Shown piece by piece: positions 26,452 through 33,864 of a DNA stretch of 64,000 nt. Positions within the stretch are counted from its first letter, which is position 1, and every line of letters begins with the position of its first letter. A model generated the notes under the pieces. It did no database searches. It was not told the DNA's origin and saw only the letters and a list, made by a program, of their open reading frames with translations. Source of the stretch: Sulfurimonas sp. HSL3-1 (GTDB lineage: Bacteria; Campylobacterota; Campylobacteria; Campylobacterales; Sulfurimonadaceae); NCBI RefSeq assembly GCF_039645995.1, contig NZ_CP147920.1:310001-374000 (forward strand), in the 5' to 3' direction. The translations under genes were made by a program, and so were the position numbers.

Positions 26452-26969
26452 GCCGATTCCCTCTCGAAACTGAAGTGTCTGGCGTGGAAAGTCTCCTCTT
26501 CCAGCGGCCGGCTGTACTGGGTGACGCCAAACGTGTCATCCGTGATCTCAAGCATAGCACATTCCGAGACCGGTTTGGAGCGCGCGCATGCTTCGCCGGG
26601 GTTAAGGTAGAGCGTCCCGTTTTTGAAATCGCACTCGAAAGTATGGGTATGACCGAAGAGCACGATCTGGGCGTCGGGTGCCATATAAAACGGTAGGTGC
26701 ATCAGTTTGAATTTCGTCTTTGCCAGTTTGAAGTAGTGGGGCTCCTGTACCAGGCTGTAGCGGTTATGGACCGCCGCGAGATGGGGGTCGTTGTTACCGT
26801 AGACGGCAACGTAGCGTTTGCCGCAGGTTTTGAGCTGCTGGAGCATCTCCTCTTTGACGATGTCGCCGCAGTGGATCAGGAACTCGGCTCCTTCGGCCAG
26901 CAGATGGTCGATCACCTGCCGGGAGTATTCCACTTTTTTATGGGTATCGGAGAGCAGCCCGATTTTCAC
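26448..26969 (-). CDS. YfcE/MJ0936-type metallophosphoesterase
   Basis: A 173-residue calcineurin-like phosphoesterase. The metal motifs occur in order: SDTH (residues 6-9), HCGDIV, YGNND, a HLPFY segment and FGHTHTF. Such small proteins hydrolyse phosphodiester bonds with Mn or Ni; natural substrates are mostly unknown. A GTG start at 26969 is chosen: it overlaps the topA stop codon as GTGA, has GAGGAAGAG upstream and places SDTH at the usual distance. An ATG 14 codons earlier would overlap topA and add a non-conserved tail. Confidence 0.87.
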   Translation of the reverse strand: MKIGLLSDTHKKVEYSRQVIDHLLAEGAEFLIHCGDIVKEEMLQQLKTCGKRYVAVYGNNDPHLAAVHNRYSLVQEPHYFKLAKTKFKLMHLPFYMAPDAQIVLFGHTHTFECDFKNGTLYLNPGEACARSKPVSECAMLEITDDTFGVTQYSRPLEEETFHARHFSFERESA

Positions 26970-29191
26970 GCCTCTTCCTCGATCGGGGTGCGGTGTTTGC
27001 ACTTGACGCACTCATAGACCTCTTTGCCGCGGTAGGTGCGGCGTGCGAGGACGCCGTCGCATCCCTCCTGGTCGCACTTCTTGTCCGTCGGCTCGAATTT
27101 CGAGATGAACTTGCACTTGGGGTAGTTTTCGCATCCCCAGAAGGCGCCGCGGCGCGACTGGCGGAAGAGCAGCTTGCCCCCGCAGTCCGGACAGGGGACT
27201 GCCGCCTCTTTCGGGGCTTCGAGGGGACGGGTGTTCTTGCATTTCGGGTAGGCGCTGCAGGCCAGGAACTTCCCGTTGCGGCCGCTTTTGATGACCATAG
27301 GGCTGCCGCACTTGTCGCACACCTCGTCGGTCGTTTCTGGTTCGGCGGCTGGTTTCGCCTCGTCCCCCTCTTCGGCGACCTGTTCGGTGTATTTGCACTT
27401 GGGGAAGCCGCTGCAGGCGATGAACTTGCCGTAGCGGCCCGAGCGCATCAGCAGCTCTGAACCGCATTCGGGACAGTTGCGGCCGATCGGTTCGGCCATC
27501 TTGAGACTCTTGATCTCTTTTTTCCCTTTGGTGATCTCCTCCATAAAGGGAAAGTAGAAGTCGATAAGGACACTCTGCCAGTCGTGGTGTTCGTCGGCAA
27601 TCTTGTCGAGGATCTCCTCCATGTTGGCGGTGAAGTTCGCATCGACAATCTCCGGGAAGTGCTTCTCGAGCAGTTCGGTGACGGTAAAGGCGACTTCCGT
27701 CGGGACAATCTGGCGTTTTTCGATGTTGATGTAGCTGCGGGCCTGCAGTGTTGAGATCGTCGGCGCATAGGTAGACGGACGGCCGATCCCTTCGGCTTCG
27801 AGCTTCTTGATCAGGCTCGCCTCGGAGTAGCGCGACGGCGGCTCGGTAAAGTGCTGGGTCGGCGCGATCGACTCGAGGGCGATGCTCTGCCCCTCTTCGA
27901 GGGTCGGGAGCAGTTTGTCCTTGTCGTCGGTGCCGAGGACTTTATAAAAACCGTCAAAGAGGAGTTTGCGGCCCGTCGCACGGTACTCGGCGCTTTCGCT
28001 TTTGAAGGTGATAGACTGCTGTTCGAACACGGCGTCGGTCATCTGGCAGGCAAGGAAGCGGGTATAGATGAGGCGGTAGAGCTTCAACTCGTCGGGTTTG
28101 AGGTACTGCGCGGCGACCTGCGGCGTGAAATCGAGCATCGTCGGGCGGATCGCCTCGTGGGCTTCCTGGGCACCCTTGGCCTTCTTGCCGTAGGCTTTGG
28201 GGCTCTTGGGCAGGTACTTCTCCCCGTAGGTGTTTACGATGGTGTCGCGGGCCGCTTCGACGGCCTCTTTGGCCATATTGAGGGAGTCCGTACGCATGTA
28301 GGTGATGACCCCGGAGGTGCCGGTGGGCGTCTTGACCCCTTCATAGAGAGTCTGGGCCAGCATCATCGTCTTTTTCGGAGAGAAGCCGAGCTTGCTCGAC
28401 GCCGTCTGCTGCAGGGTCGAGGTCATAAACGGCGGCGGCGTGGAGGTCTTGCGCTGCTTGGTCTCGATCGCATTGACGCTGAACGCTTCGCCGCGGATGC
28501 GCTCGGTCATCGCCTCGGCCATTGCCTGGTTCTTGATAGCGAGCTTGTCGAGTTTTTCACCCTCGTAGCTGTAGAGGTTCGCGTCGATGCCCGGAGCAAA
28601 GACGGTATCGATGGTCCAGTACTCTTCGGGCGTGAAGGCCTTGATCTCCCGTTCGCGGTCGACGATGATCTTGAGCGTCGAGGACTGGACGCGGCCGCCG
28701 GAGAGCCCTTTTTGGATCTTGGAGCTCAGCAGCGGAGAGAGCTTGTAGCCGACGATGCGGTCGAGCAGACGGCGGGTCTGCTGGGCGTTGACGCGGTCCA
28801 TGTCGATCTCCCGGGCCGTCTCCAGCGCGTGGGCGATGGCGGTTTTGGTGATCTCGTGGAAGACGATGCGCGGCAGGGACGTCGGATCTTTTTTGATCGC
28901 ATGGGCAATGTGCCATCCGATCGCTTCTCCTTCGCGGTCCTCATCGGTCGCGATATAGATTTCATCCGCTTTTTTTGCCAGTTCCTGGATCTGTTTGACG
29001 GTGGGCGCATTCTCCTTGGAAACGCTGTATTCGGGAGTAAGCGTACGTGCTTCCTCGTCGACTTTGATGCCGAAACGGCTTTTGGGGAGGTCGCGGATAT
29101 GCCCCTTGGAAGCGATGACTTCGTACCCTTTTCCGAGGAAGTTCTTGATGGTTCTTGCCTTGGCCGGGGACTCTACGATAATCAGTTTCAA
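26966..29191 (-). CDS. topA: DNA topoisomerase I
   Basis: A 741-residue type IA topoisomerase that relaxes negative supercoils. It begins with the Toprim domain (KLIIVESPAKARTIKNFLG), has TDEDREGEAIGWH, and carries the active-site Tyr in ITYMRTDS. The C-terminus has four zinc-ribbon units (CPECG, CDKCG, CPDCG, CDQEGC, each closed by a second Cys pair). A TTG start at 29191 is chosen: AGGAAAC precedes it and the Toprim domain begins at once. The frame stays open upstream to 29416 but that part is not conserved and overlaps the divergent gene. Confidence 0.95.
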   Translation of the reverse strand: MKLIIVESPAKARTIKNFLGKGYEVIASKGHIRDLPKSRFGIKVDEEARTLTPEYSVSKENAPTVKQIQELAKKADEIYIATDEDREGEAIGWHIAHAIKKDPTSLPRIVFHEITKTAIAHALETAREIDMDRVNAQQTRRLLDRIVGYKLSPLLSSKIQKGLSGGRVQSSTLKIIVDREREIKAFTPEEYWTIDTVFAPGIDANLYSYEGEKLDKLAIKNQAMAEAMTERIRGEAFSVNAIETKQRKTSTPPPFMTSTLQQTASSKLGFSPKKTMMLAQTLYEGVKTPTGTSGVITYMRTDSLNMAKEAVEAARDTIVNTYGEKYLPKSPKAYGKKAKGAQEAHEAIRPTMLDFTPQVAAQYLKPDELKLYRLIYTRFLACQMTDAVFEQQSITFKSESAEYRATGRKLLFDGFYKVLGTDDKDKLLPTLEEGQSIALESIAPTQHFTEPPSRYSEASLIKKLEAEGIGRPSTYAPTISTLQARSYINIEKRQIVPTEVAFTVTELLEKHFPEIVDANFTANMEEILDKIADEHHDWQSVLIDFYFPFMEEITKGKKEIKSLKMAEPIGRNCPECGSELLMRSGRYGKFIACSGFPKCKYTEQVAEEGDEAKPAAEPETTDEVCDKCGSPMVIKSGRNGKFLACSAYPKCKNTRPLEAPKEAAVPCPDCGGKLLFRQSRRGAFWGCENYPKCKFISKFEPTDKKCDQEGCDGVLARRTYRGKEVYECVKCKHRTPIEEEA

Positions 29192-29342
29192 TGAGTTTCC
29201 TATATATATAGTATTGGCGATTTGAGTTCGCAAGTGTAGCGAAAAAAGTTTTAACGCTGCGAAGCCGGATGGCGAGATTAAGGCAGAGGCAAGTTTGCCG
29301 CTCGCCCGAAAGCGGCGCAGGGCTTTGAGGGGCACGGTTCTG

Positions 29343-29374: not shown

Positions 29375-30202
29375 ATGGAAACGACAGAAAACCGCCTTAT
29401 GGATGAGGCCCGACACGAACCGGTGAAGAATGTATTTCGTCTCGGGTGGGAGTTTATCATTGTAAACCGCACCCTGGCCCTGATGACGGTGGCGGCTTTT
29501 GTGCTGCTGACGCTGTTGGAGCTGGTCCCGATCGTCGGTCTGGCAGCCTCGGTGGCCGTAGGGGTTTTCGCCCAGTCGGTGCAGATCTATGTCGGGCGGG
29601 CTTTCGCGGAGGCGGCCTCCATCGACGCCTTCCTTTCCGAGGCCCGCCTGACGACGCTCAGCACCTTTTTGACCCGCTACCAGGCACCGGCTTTCGGAGC
29701 ATGGCTCGGGTGGTTTGTCATCAGCATGGGCGCTTTCATCATCTGGATGACCCTGGCACTCTCTGCGGGGTTTGATCCCATGATGCTGGAAGAGACCATA
29801 GCGGATGAGGCCCAGCTGATGGCATTGATGGAGGCGATGGGACTGAGCCTGCTGCCGGTGCTGCTCATCGGGTTGCTGATCATTTATGTCTATCCCATCG
29901 CCCAGGGACGGGTCATTCTCTCCGACACCTTCGGCGACGCTTTCAAGGCGGTCTTTTCCGTCTTTCTACCCTCGGTTTGGAAAGCAGCGGCAGAAGGGGA
30001 GTATTTCCGTTTTCTCTTCGTGTTCGGATTGGCACTTTTGGGAATAGGTATGCTCGTGGGAATCGCGATGATGCTTCTGTTCCTTATCCCCCTTTTCGGC
30101 CCGATCCTGTTTGCACTGCTGACGGCCGGACTCTTTTATGTGATGTTCCTGGTGATGGCGATTGCGAGTGTTTTGGCACGTTCGATGGTCGAAGCGTTTT
30201 AG
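29375..30202 (+). CDS. Uncharacterised integral membrane protein
   Basis: A 275-residue protein with about six hydrophobic segments: roughly 25-45, 45-65, 105-130, 155-180, 205-230 and 235-265. It is Ala/Leu/Met-rich with short charged loops. I do not recognise the family; the layout resembles small DUF-type membrane proteins. GAGAGAGGA lies before the ATG. Its stop codon interlocks with that of the converging aminotransferase gene: TTAG at 30199-30202 serves as TAA on the minus strand and TAG on the plus strand. Confidence 0.75.
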   Translation: METTENRLMDEARHEPVKNVFRLGWEFIIVNRTLALMTVAAFVLLTLLELVPIVGLAASVAVGVFAQSVQIYVGRAFAEAASIDAFLSEARLTTLSTFLTRYQAPAFGAWLGWFVISMGAFIIWMTLALSAGFDPMMLEETIADEAQLMALMEAMGLSLLPVLLIGLLIIYVYPIAQGRVILSDTFGDAFKAVFSVFLPSVWKAAAEGEYFRFLFVFGLALLGIGMLVGIAMMLLFLIPLFGPILFALLTAGLFYVMFLVMAIASVLARSMVEAF

Positions 30203-31278
30203 AAGCTGCAGCCCCGGTAGGCGTACTTCTCCGTCGCTTCTTGCACGGCCGCGGCGACCTGCCTGATTTCGTCAGTAGTGAGCCTGTGGTGGCAGGGGAG
30301 CTGCAGCAGGGCCTTGTAGAAATCCTCCGTCACCGGTAAACGGACCCCCTCATCTTTGAACGCCGTCGTTTTGTAAAGCGGTTTGCAGCAGACGGTCGCT
30401 TCAATACCTTTCCCTCTTATGCTGCTATAAATATCCTCTTTCGGACAGTAGAGCTGCGGGGTCAGCAGGATGGGGTAGCTTTCAGGGGCGTCATCGGGGG
30501 CGCGCTTCATGCAGTCAAAGAGGGTACTGGAGTGCAGCTGTTCGTCCAGCAGCGCACTGTTCTCGCGGCGGCGCTCGCAGGCGGTTTCCAGGTGCCGCAG
30601 CTGTTCCAGCGCGACGGCGGCGGCGAGAAGGTCCAGCGTGCAGTCGGCCCCCCGGAGGGGAAGGTCGTAGTTCCAGAGACTGCCAGGCTGCCGGCCCCCC
30701 CGGCGAAAAAGGCGGGCACTTTGCGCGATTACATCGTCGTCGGTGAGCAGAAAGCCGGTAGAGCTGACGCCCTCAGGCATGAGGGGCGCGAGTGACCAGA
30801 CGGCGGAGCCGGAGGGCTTCATCGGGAGCAGGGAACCGGTAGCGTCCTCGAGCAGTGTCAGTGCGGCCGGAACCTCCGGAGCGATCGAACGGATGCCCCC
30901 GAAATGCGCGAAGAGCACGGCGTCTGTTTCCGTACCGATCGCCTTTTCGACGGCGGCGGCCATCAGGACGCCGTTAAGACCGATGTCGGCGTAGCGCGTG
31001 CGGACACCGCTGCGGCGGAGCGCGCTGGAGCGGTGGGACGGGGCCATGGCGTCGGTGATGATCGTCGCTTCTTTGAGGGGAGCGAGGAGCGCTTCCAGTG
31101 CGGAGGAGGGGGTGTCGAACGCAATGGCGTGGGCGCAGCCGTGGTAAGCCGCGACGGCCGCTTCCAGCCGGGCGGGCGCATCAGGGTCGAGTGCGAAGGT
31201 CCGCGCCGCAAGGGCGTCACGTTCCCTGACCCGGGCCGAGAAGGGGATGGGGGCTGATGTGACGCCGGGGGCGCTCAT
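30199..31278 (-). CDS. PseC/DegT-like aminotransferase lacking the catalytic lysine
   Basis: A 359-residue protein of the DegT/DnrJ/EryC1 fold. The C-terminal third (YPILLTPQLYCPKEDIYSS, KPLYKT, FYKALLQLPCH) follows the PseC group, the pseudaminic-acid pathway transaminase, closely. The PLP-contacting LEDATGS is present. The internal aldimine lysine, found in PseC as SFHPxK, is here Met: SLAPLM with M167. The glycine-rich GEGG that follows is also altered to STGF. It therefore should not transaminate in the usual way; a regulatory role or decay of a duplicate is possible. Its start overlaps the upstream membrane-protein gene (ATGA). Confidence 0.75.
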   Translation of the reverse strand: MSAPGVTSAPIPFSARVRERDALAARTFALDPDAPARLEAAVAAYHGCAHAIAFDTPSSALEALLAPLKEATIITDAMAPSHRSSALRRSGVRTRYADIGLNGVLMAAAVEKAIGTETDAVLFAHFGGIRSIAPEVPAALTLLEDATGSLLPMKPSGSAVWSLAPLMPEGVSSTGFLLTDDDVIAQSARLFRRGGRQPGSLWNYDLPLRGADCTLDLLAAAVALEQLRHLETACERRRENSALLDEQLHSSTLFDCMKRAPDDAPESYPILLTPQLYCPKEDIYSSIRGKGIEATVCCKPLYKTTAFKDEGVRLPVTEDFYKALLQLPCHHRLTTDEIRQVAAAVQEATEKYAYRGCSF

Positions 31279-31688
31279 GGTCTCGGCGACTCCATGGCAT
31301 CATCGAGATCGGCGTAGCGGGTCTCGTCTTTGGGTTCGGGCTCCGCTTCGATCACGAAGTGGCTGTGGTGCACTCCTCTCTGCGGCGTCACCGAACGCGA
31401 AGAGCGTTTGCGAAGCAGGTAGCGTTCGGTGCGGTAGCCGCCGAAAAAGAGCGCCCCGAGCAGTGCCAGGACGAAACTTCCGATCGCCCAGGTCTTCATA
31501 TAGGCGCTCCACTCCCCCTGCCAGACGGTTTCGATCAGCAGCAGGATGTCAAGTTCCCCCGTGACCAGCACCAGCAGCACGAGAAAAAAGACATAGGGGG
31601 CACCGAGCAAGACAATAAAAAGCAAAAAAGGGTTGACATAAACGGGGTTGTCCGACATGCGCGACCGTTCCAACTCCATTGCCGTCAT
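31275..31688 (-). CDS. Uncharacterised two-helix membrane protein
   Basis: A 137-residue protein with two hydrophobic segments (about 19-44 and 65-85), then a basic stretch (RYLLRKRSSRS) and a charged tail (EAEPEPKDETRYADLDD). The ATG at 31688 is used because AAGGAG precedes it; M11 is an alternative. Not recognised. It overlaps the PseC-like gene, so the two share a transcript. Confidence 0.65.
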   Translation of the reverse strand: MTAMELERSRMSDNPVYVNPFLLFIVLLGAPYVFFLVLLVLVTGELDILLLIETVWQGEWSAYMKTWAIGSFVLALLGALFFGGYRTERYLLRKRSSRSVTPQRGVHHSHFVIEAEPEPKDETRYADLDDAMESPRP

Positions 31689-31840: not shown

Positions 31841-31916
31841 GGTCCCATAGCTCAGTTGGTAGAGCACCACCTTGACATGGTGGTGGTCACAGGTTCAAGT
31901 CCTGTTGGGGCCACCA
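31841..31916 (+). tRNA. tRNA-Val (GAC)
   Basis: 76 nt cloverleaf with acceptor GGTCCCA/TGGGGCC (one T-G pair), D arm, anticodon stem CCACC/GGTGG with loop TTGACAT (anticodon GAC), T loop TTCAAGT and encoded CCA end. A single gene, 139 bp before thrS. Confidence 0.95.
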
Positions 31917-32055: not shown

Positions 32056-33864
32056 ATGGATGCTATTGCACTCAAACACAACGACGATATCATTGATTTG
32101 CAAACCGCCGAGGCCCTCGGAATCAGCGGGGAAGCGATCGTACTGGATAACTCGGATGACGCCCTGGAAGTACTACGCCACTCCACGGCACACCTGATGG
32201 CCCAGGCGATCAATTCGCTCTACACCAATGCCAAGTTTTTCGTTGGTCCCGTCGTCAAAGACGGATTCTATTACGACTTCAAAGTCGACGAAGAGATCGG
32301 CGAAGCGGACCTGAAGAATATCGAGAAAGAGATGCTCAGACTGGCGAAGAAGAAGTATGACATTGAACGCTATGAGATCTCGATGGAAGAGGCGAAACAC
32401 AAATTCGGCAACGACGAGCTGAAACTCGATGTCCTGAAGCGTATCCCGGAGACAAAAGTTTCCGTCTACAAACAGGGCGATTTCGAGGACCTCTGCCGGG
32501 GTCCGCACCTGCCGAGCGTGCGCCATATCCGTCACTTCAAACTGACGAAGATCGCCGGGGCCTACCGCGGCGGCGACAGCAAGAACGAGATGCTGACCCG
32601 TATCTACGGCGTCGCCTTCGCGGACAAAGAGACCCTCAAAGCCTACCTTGACCGCATGGCGGAGGCGGAAAAACGCGACCACCGCAAGATCGGCAACGAG
32701 ATGAAACTCTTTACCTTCCGCGAAGAGGTCGGCGCGGGCTTCCCGATCTGGCTTCCGGCCGGGGGACGCCTGCGTTCGCGCCTGGAGGGACTGCTCTTCA
32801 AGGCGCACCGCAAGCGCGGTTACGAGCCGGTCCGCGGACCGGAGATGCTGCGTTCGGATCTCTGGAAGACCTCCGGGCACTACCAGAACTACGGCGAGAA
32901 CATGTATTTCACAAATATCGACGAGATCGAGTTCGGCGTCAAGCCGATGAACTGCGTCGGCCACATCAAGGCCTATGAACACGACTTGCACTCCTACCGC
33001 GACCTGCCGCTGAAGTACTTTGAATATGGCGTCGTCCACCGCCACGAGATGACGGGGGCGCTCCACGGGCTCTTCCGTGTCCGGGAGTTCACGCAGGATG
33101 ATGCGCACATCTTCTGTACGGCGGAGCAGATCGAGGAACAGATCATCGAGATCGTCGATTTCATCGACAAGATCATGAAGACCTTCGGCTTTGAGTACCA
33201 GATGATGATCTCAACCAAGCCGGAGAAGGCCGTCGGCGACGACGCGATCTGGGAAACGGCGACCAACGCGCTGAAGACGGCGATGGACCGTAACAGCCTT
33301 ACCTACGGGATCGACGAGGGGGGCGGGGCCTTCTACGGGCCGAAGATCGACATCAAAATCACCGATGCGATCGGCCGGGAGTGGCAGTGCGGAACGGTCC
33401 AGCTCGACTTCAACCTGCCGGAGCGTTTCGAGCTCGAATACACGGGCGAAGGCAACGCCAAGGTGCAGCCGGTGATGATCCACCGTGCGATTTTAGGTTC
33501 ATTTGAGCGATTTATTGGTATATTGACAGAGCATTACGCCGGGGAATTCCCGATGTTCGTCGCGCCGACGCAGGTCGCGATCATTCCGATCGCCGAAACG
33601 CATAACGCTTATGCGAAGGAGCTGTCGGACAAATTGATGGACATCGGAGCCGATTCGGAGATCTTCGACAAGAACGAAAGTCTGAACAAACGGGTCCGTA
33701 CGGCGGAAAAAGGACGGGTGCCTATGATCATCGTTATCGGTGACGACGAGGTAGCCAACAAGAAAGTGGCGGTACGCGACCGCCGCGAACGGACACAGTA
33801 CGATCTCTCCGAAGCGGAGTTCATCGCGCTGATCCAGAAGAAAATTAATGAGGTACATTTTTGA
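32056..33864 (+). CDS. thrS: Threonyl-tRNA synthetase
   Basis: A 602-residue class II synthetase. It begins nearly at the editing domain ([11 protein letters not shown] near residue 43, CRGPHLPS near 154), with little or no TGS domain, as usual in Campylobacterota. The catalytic core contains [36 protein letters not shown] (motif 2) and the [14 protein letters not shown] motif 3. The C-terminal anticodon-binding domain follows. The stop codon overlaps infC. A TAGAAT -10-like element lies at 31985. Confidence 0.97.

Follow-up and report, generated by a model that had tools for sequence, protein, structure and literature searches.

The window, which is the whole stretch of 64,000 nucleotides that was analysed, carries a gene for a protein with the predicted fold of the transaminase PseC that has lost the PLP lysine together with most of the other cofactor contacts. 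The fold is kept, the catalytic residues are gone and the dN/dS values point to purifying selection, a combination that would place the protein among the pseudoenzymes of PLP fold type I. The explanation we prefer, and to which we give about an even chance, is that a PseC derivative has been retained as a non-catalytic binding protein by virtue of its C-terminal domain and tail. The gene and its neighbours are located as follows:

30199..31278, minus strand: lysine-less PseC-like ORF, 359 amino acids plus stop, with an ATG start, no internal stop and matches to DegT/PseC profiles and PDB sequences
31275..31688, minus strand: small membrane-protein ORF, 137 amino acids, upstream of the lysine-less gene and overlapping its start by 4 bases (ATGA)
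29375..30202, plus strand: convergent membrane-protein ORF, 275 amino acids, between topA and the lysine-less gene and overlapping the 3' end of the latter by 4 bases
26966..29233, minus strand: topA, the usual neighbour of the lysine-less gene
31841..31916, plus strand: tRNA-Val(gac), before thrS
32056..33864, plus strand: thrS, the other flank of the lysine-less gene

The ORF scored 115.5 bits against PF01041 (DegT_DnrJ_EryC1), above the gathering cut-off of 19.8, and is thus a member of that family, whereas TIGR03588 (PseC), its best NCBIfam model, returned 101 bits against an equivalog cut-off of 423.5. Its best PDB sequence match was the H. pylori PseC 2fn6 (phmmer, E 9e-20). An AlphaFold2 model built on 55 aligned sequences had a mean pLDDT of 94.2 and a pTM of 0.91, and its comparison by VIA-align placed the PseC structures 2fni, 2fnu and 2fn6 at the top (Z 40.5-40.7, rmsd 1.9-2.0 over 340-342 residues), with other DegT transaminases ranking below at Z 39 and lower. 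The structure prediction and superposition proposed in an earlier note on this DNA therefore returned a PseC fold (Z 40.7, rmsd 2.0, 342 residues, for the predicted model), and the note's description of a PseC-like protein in an intact frame holds for the sequence, profile and fold matches alike. The last residue block of the model reached a pLDDT of 71, and the C-terminal tail is probably flexible in it.

The small membrane-protein gene, also reported earlier as an overlapping neighbour, shares its four bases with the gene start on the same strand, and the two genes are probably translationally coupled. Among the loci compared it was confined to the window's genus; the comparison excluded contig G021:C5 (L046), which carries the end of a lysine-less gene and a topA 95% identical to that of the window. 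Genome G021 belongs to another genus and shows 7% contamination, and the contig is probably a stray piece from the window's genus.

The residues that define the active site were located by alignment with 2fn6 and by column statistics:

30778..30780, minus strand: codon of Met167, which faces the PLP lysine in the 2fn6 alignment
30754..30765, minus strand: SSTG (172-175), opposite GEGG of PseC (alignment)
31039..31041, minus strand: Pro80, in the column of the PLP-stacking aromatic residue, Phe in PseC (column statistics)
30844..30846, minus strand: Asp145, aligned with the aspartate that contacts N1 of PLP (alignment, column statistics)
30643..30645, minus strand: Asp212, in place of the PseC Asn of the G-x-N-x-R motif (alignment, column statistics)

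The segment SFHAIKP of 2fn6 pairs residue by residue with SLAPLMP of the ORF, so that the lysine faces Met167, as the earlier note had proposed, and the column is Lys in 53/53 of the lysine-bearing relatives aligned. The same note was right that GEGG is replaced, while the segment it named, STGF, is shifted by one with respect to the facing SSTG. Cofactor-contact residues, including the aromatic residue stacking on PLP, are described for Spr1654 in the portion of PMC5936713 available to us, and we infer their roles in the window protein from motif spacing. The contacts lost comprise Phe (Pro80), the His of SFH (Ala164), Lys (Met167), the Glu and Gly of GEGG (Ser173 and Thr174) and the Asn of GxN (Asp212). 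Also lost is the TQG segment close to the N-terminus, which we take to adjoin the uracil pocket. The N1 aspartate is retained as Asp145 and is gone from the Nitratiruptoraceae group; in the phosphate-contact columns a Ser is retained as Ser162 and a Thr is replaced by Ser58. With these residues in place, weak binding of PLP or PMP may still occur.

The searches for relatives covered 398 genomes of the order, a named genome collection (39 loci), 22 Nitratiruptoraceae-type genomes and 228 genomes of the window's family. Within the genus the closest proteins were 89, 74, 73, 48 and 46% identical to the window protein. Relatives of the window genome, the order search and the named collection provided 22 distinct lysine-less proteins for alignment, of which 13 belong to Sulfurimonadaceae, the family of the window genome, and 9 to the Nitratiruptoraceae type. 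The lysine column holds M in seven, L in two, V in two, I in one and A in one of them, and is deleted in the nine Nitratiruptoraceae-type proteins. Conservation of the Met, which the earlier note had suggested examining, thus extends to 7/22 relatives and is not fixed. Since this variety faces an unbroken Lys in the other 53 proteins, the alignment indicates that the column is let go and not put to new use.

The gene was found in 19/22 genomes of the family of G053 (Nitratiruptoraceae type), and all 19 copies adjoin topA, one of them being split over two contigs. A copy, intact or contig-cut, is present in 13/228 genomes of the window's family. In 11 of these topA is the adjacent gene or is separated from the copy by a single ORF; the exceptions are G435, where the 10 kb read contained no topA, and G032, whose 4 kb contig has infC/thrS. 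Among the named records, those for the window's genus include Sulfuricurvum and Helicobacteraceae MAGs, and the short form is represented by Nitratiruptor. A predicted model of one Nitratiruptoraceae short form (282 amino acids in the frame used) gave a pLDDT of 89.6 and a pTM of 0.86. A fragment in G421 that had been suspected of lacking the lysine proved to belong to a lysine-type PseC.

One branch of the tree separates lysine-less from lysine-bearing proteins (100 bootstrap / 99 SH-aLRT). The split recurred (96) when the tree was restricted to the 94 C-terminal columns, and removal of the two longest rows left the lysine-bearing rows on one side of a branch (96). The lysine-less proteins also have in common the derived residues Pro80 for Phe, present in 9/10 of the Sulfurimonadaceae lysine-less rows having a residue in that column and in every such row of the Nitratiruptoraceae type, and Tyr204 for Ser. 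These shared derived residues support a single origin, which the long branches in the tree leave likely rather than certain.

Selection was evaluated by the Nei-Gojobori method. The lysine-less gene gave dN/dS values of 0.26 for window/G007, 0.19 for G004/G006 and 0.21 for both window/G004 and window/G006, and four Nitratiruptoraceae pairs gave 0.25, 0.08, 0.10 and 0.07. In the same pairs from the window's genus, thrS was under stronger constraint (0.02-0.04) and the small membrane gene showed 0.26-0.36. The range of 0.07-0.26 indicates that the lysine-less gene encodes a protein under moderate purifying selection. With the same loss seen in both protein groups and values well below 1, the substitution noticed in the window is more than a chance event.

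The gene is, as judged from two related genomes, dispensable, because it is absent from G002 and only its final 56 residues (84% identity) survive in G003 (L043:7001-7565). This remnant is best read as a recent deletion in a smaller genome. The small membrane gene of G003 is split over two frames. In G002 (L116:5298-6342) a short-chain dehydrogenase gene and the small membrane gene fill the site, and in G001 (L035) these two and the lysine-less gene stand together.

The C-terminal half contains three conserved segments:

30430..30447, minus strand: CPKEDI (278-283), conserved motif with Cys278
30373..30384, minus strand: KPLY (299-302), conserved KP-Y motif
30202..30219, minus strand: YRGCSF (354-359), the tail at the C-terminus, including Cys357, modelled with lower confidence

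The motifs CPKE-I, KP-Y and Y-RGC-F are common to true PseC, which bears out the earlier statement that a PseC-type C-terminus is retained. In an alignment of 18 sequences CPKE-I, KP-Y and R-G-C-x-F were invariant across all groups, and the wider set showed two exceptions, L147 with RSC instead of RGC and L149 without the exact CPKE. Twelve lysine-less rows of the window's family were compared with 39 lysine-bearing relatives: of the positions conserved in the latter, the former have released 100 and kept 29; the very divergent L025 was counted with Nitratiruptoraceae and in-between positions were left off the list. Residues from 268 onwards account for 17/29 of the kept and 18/100 of the released positions (Fisher p 7e-5), and the segments 268-302 and 352-359, picked after seeing the data, for 16/29 and 6/100. 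The PLP-binding large domain is the least conserved part of the protein and is shortened in Nitratiruptoraceae.

All 22 lysine-less proteins have Cys278 as well as a Cys among their last seven residues. In 90 lysine-bearing rows both occur in 59, neither in 21 and one only in 10, an association with a Fisher p of 2e-11 when kinship is ignored. A kinship-aware analysis of 89 rows found four independent supported changes at Cys278, with the tail following in 3.2/4 on average, and with only these four changes a sign test on the tree did not fall below 0.05; the covariation of the pair in PseC is therefore a lead and not a result. Proteins of the window's genus have extra cysteines at 297, 298 (CCKP) and 329, which make their C-terminal half Cys-rich and are absent from the other lysine-less groups. 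True PseC proteins of Sulfurimonadaceae (L008, L012, L015 and other loci) mostly end in (Y/H)RGCSF, a tail that lies beyond the TIGR03588 profile. The tail was also considered as a general peptide signal and discarded: of 5 matches to its pattern in the window genome, 3 end in a stop, and this ORF is the sole evident gene among them.

In profile searches of the window genome neither PseC nor PseB exceeded its cut-off (the best PseB match scored 195.2 bits against 407.75), PseI was without a match and flagellin was absent. With these components absent, the gene content indicates that the lysine-less protein cannot serve pseudaminic-acid synthesis there. In a 60-genome panel, PseC, PseB and PseI over cut-off were absent from 11/11 genomes with an intact lysine-less gene (G000, G001, G004-G007, G014, G031-G033 and G053, with contig-cut copies in G014 and G033), and flagellin was present in two of them, G005 and G053. 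In flagellate relatives the flagellin gene often adjoins topA and pse genes lie further on, as in G022 (topA 116793-119018, flagellin 119199, PseC 127598) and in G015, where flagellin and PseC stand between topA and thrS on one contig. The topA-thrS gap, only 2.8 kb in the window, holds flagellin and PseC in G015, so by gene order the lysine-less gene is in the interval that is occupied by flagellin and pse genes elsewhere. Among 37 Sulfurimonadaceae genomes, 11 had the lysine-less gene (including the G003 remnant), 14 had PseC over cut-off and 0 had both (Fisher p 0.002, uncorrected for kinship). The two genes occur together in 5/22 Nitratiruptoraceae-type genomes, so that the lysine-less gene is more than a mere leftover of a vanished pathway. 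Operon partners were of no help as a clue, since neighbours differ between the groups and no common partner emerged. In Nitratiruptoraceae (L040:6221-9080; L127, L128, L130) genes for a CorA-type transporter and an asparagine synthetase come after that of the short form.

These data bear on whether the protein could be an enzyme after all. An active PLP enzyme working through a different lysine is extremely improbable. The window protein has 11 lysines, of which 280, 299 and 303 are invariant among the lysine-less rows compared, but all three fall outside the pocket motif, and Lys280 and Lys299 are also conserved in lysine-bearing PseC (fractions 1.0 and 0.96) and so would not be replacements. 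Near residue 167 a Lys occurs in only 1/12 lysine-less rows (L007; segment compared). The alternative raised by the earlier note against its own proposal, another Lys at the PLP site, is thus set aside on grounds of conservation rather than of measured distances. A PMP-dependent dehydratase like ColD or E1, or some other lysine-less catalyst, would have the same fold and could use the retained Asp145 and Ser162, but is very unlikely, since the part of PMC8987622 available to us gives His at the lysine position of the 3-dehydratases, and His occurs there in 0/22 lysine-less proteins. The aromatic stacker, the GEGG and SFH residues, the GxN Asn and the TQG segment are lost as well. We accordingly abandoned the dehydratase branch of the earlier either/or reading, as far as alignments allow; its derivation from PseC with a retained C-terminus stood, and the alternative of a structural partner for PseC failed for the window genome, though such a role may apply in the 5/22 Nitratiruptoraceae genomes that carry both genes.

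The position between topA and thrS, where flagellate relatives carry flagellin and then PseC, together with the short remnant and broken small membrane gene of G003 and the absence of the gene from G002, would suit a relic of pseC left by deletion of the intervening flagellin/pse genes and now decaying. We regard this as unlikely, albeit deserving some weight, because it is opposed by the low dN/dS, by C-terminal motifs invariant across two families and by the retention of the gene in most Nitratiruptoraceae genomes, some with true PseC elsewhere. The lysine-less proteins moreover form one tree group rather than scattered losses, and repeated in-place decay of pseC after pathway loss was rejected on the single branch for all 22 and on the coexistence of both genes. 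Quite unlikely, too, is a pseudo-subunit that would pair with another DegT enzyme and stabilise or regulate it. The predicted fold is intact, other DegT proteins are encoded in the genome (e.g., G000:C1:1401068-1402159 and 1361009-1362034), serine palmitoyltransferase provides a precedent for lysine-less subunits, and in Nitratiruptoraceae a PseC partner is available where both genes coexist; however, the large domain, taken as dimer-forming, is the part least conserved and shortened, and the window genome has no PseC.

In the preferred reading of a retained binding protein, this PseC-derived DegT-fold protein would no longer use PLP nor carry out transamination, and selection would keep the gene for a non-catalytic job of the C-terminal domain and tail (CPKE-I, KP-Y, Y-RGC-F), most likely the binding of a partner protein or ligand. 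Cys278 and Cys357 might act as a thiol pair or as a metal or partner contact. Near-invariance combined with lower confidence in the monomer model would fit a tail that serves as a docking peptide or packs on a partner subunit. The job would be independent of pseudaminic acid, since the protein persists without the pathway, and it probably arose in PseC, whose true Campylobacterota members have the module in common, and outlived the pathway. The wider proposal that Campylobacterota PseC itself bears a second, non-catalytic C-terminal and tail function (Cys278/Cys357), and that an ancient topA-linked paralogue shed the enzyme and kept only that function, even without flagella and pathway, is tentative and in our view rather doubtful. 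If true, a second role of this flagellin-glycosylation enzyme of Campylobacterota has gone unrecognised, and a short invariant tail is its mark. The family without the lysine would then be a natural separation-of-function mutant, revealing which PseC residues serve something other than chemistry and making that testable. Such genes should not be annotated as PseC transaminases, nor should pseudaminic acid be inferred from them.

Lysine-less proteins of the PLP fold are as such already known. In serine palmitoyltransferase, a lysine-less subunit is joined to a catalytic partner in a heterodimer. It resembles the window protein in being of fold type I, without the lysine and kept by selection, but differs in having that partner, none having been found here. 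The 3-dehydratases ColD, E1 and SpnQ, as described in the portion of PMC8987622 consulted, have His for Lys and retain PMP binding; they have in common with the window protein an aminotransferase fold devoid of the catalytic lysine, whereas here a hydrophobic residue or a deletion takes its place and the pocket is lost. The literature searched, in the portions available, held no report of a lysine-less PseC-like family. PseC itself (2fn6, 2fni, 2fnu; TIGR03588) differs from the window protein in the PLP lysine, in most cofactor contacts, in profile score (101 bits against 423.5) and in the pathway genes, which are missing from the window genome. It is alike in the fold, predicted over 342 residues, and in the C-terminal CxKE and KP-Y motifs, and most Sulfurimonadaceae PseC proteins end in the same RGCSF tail.
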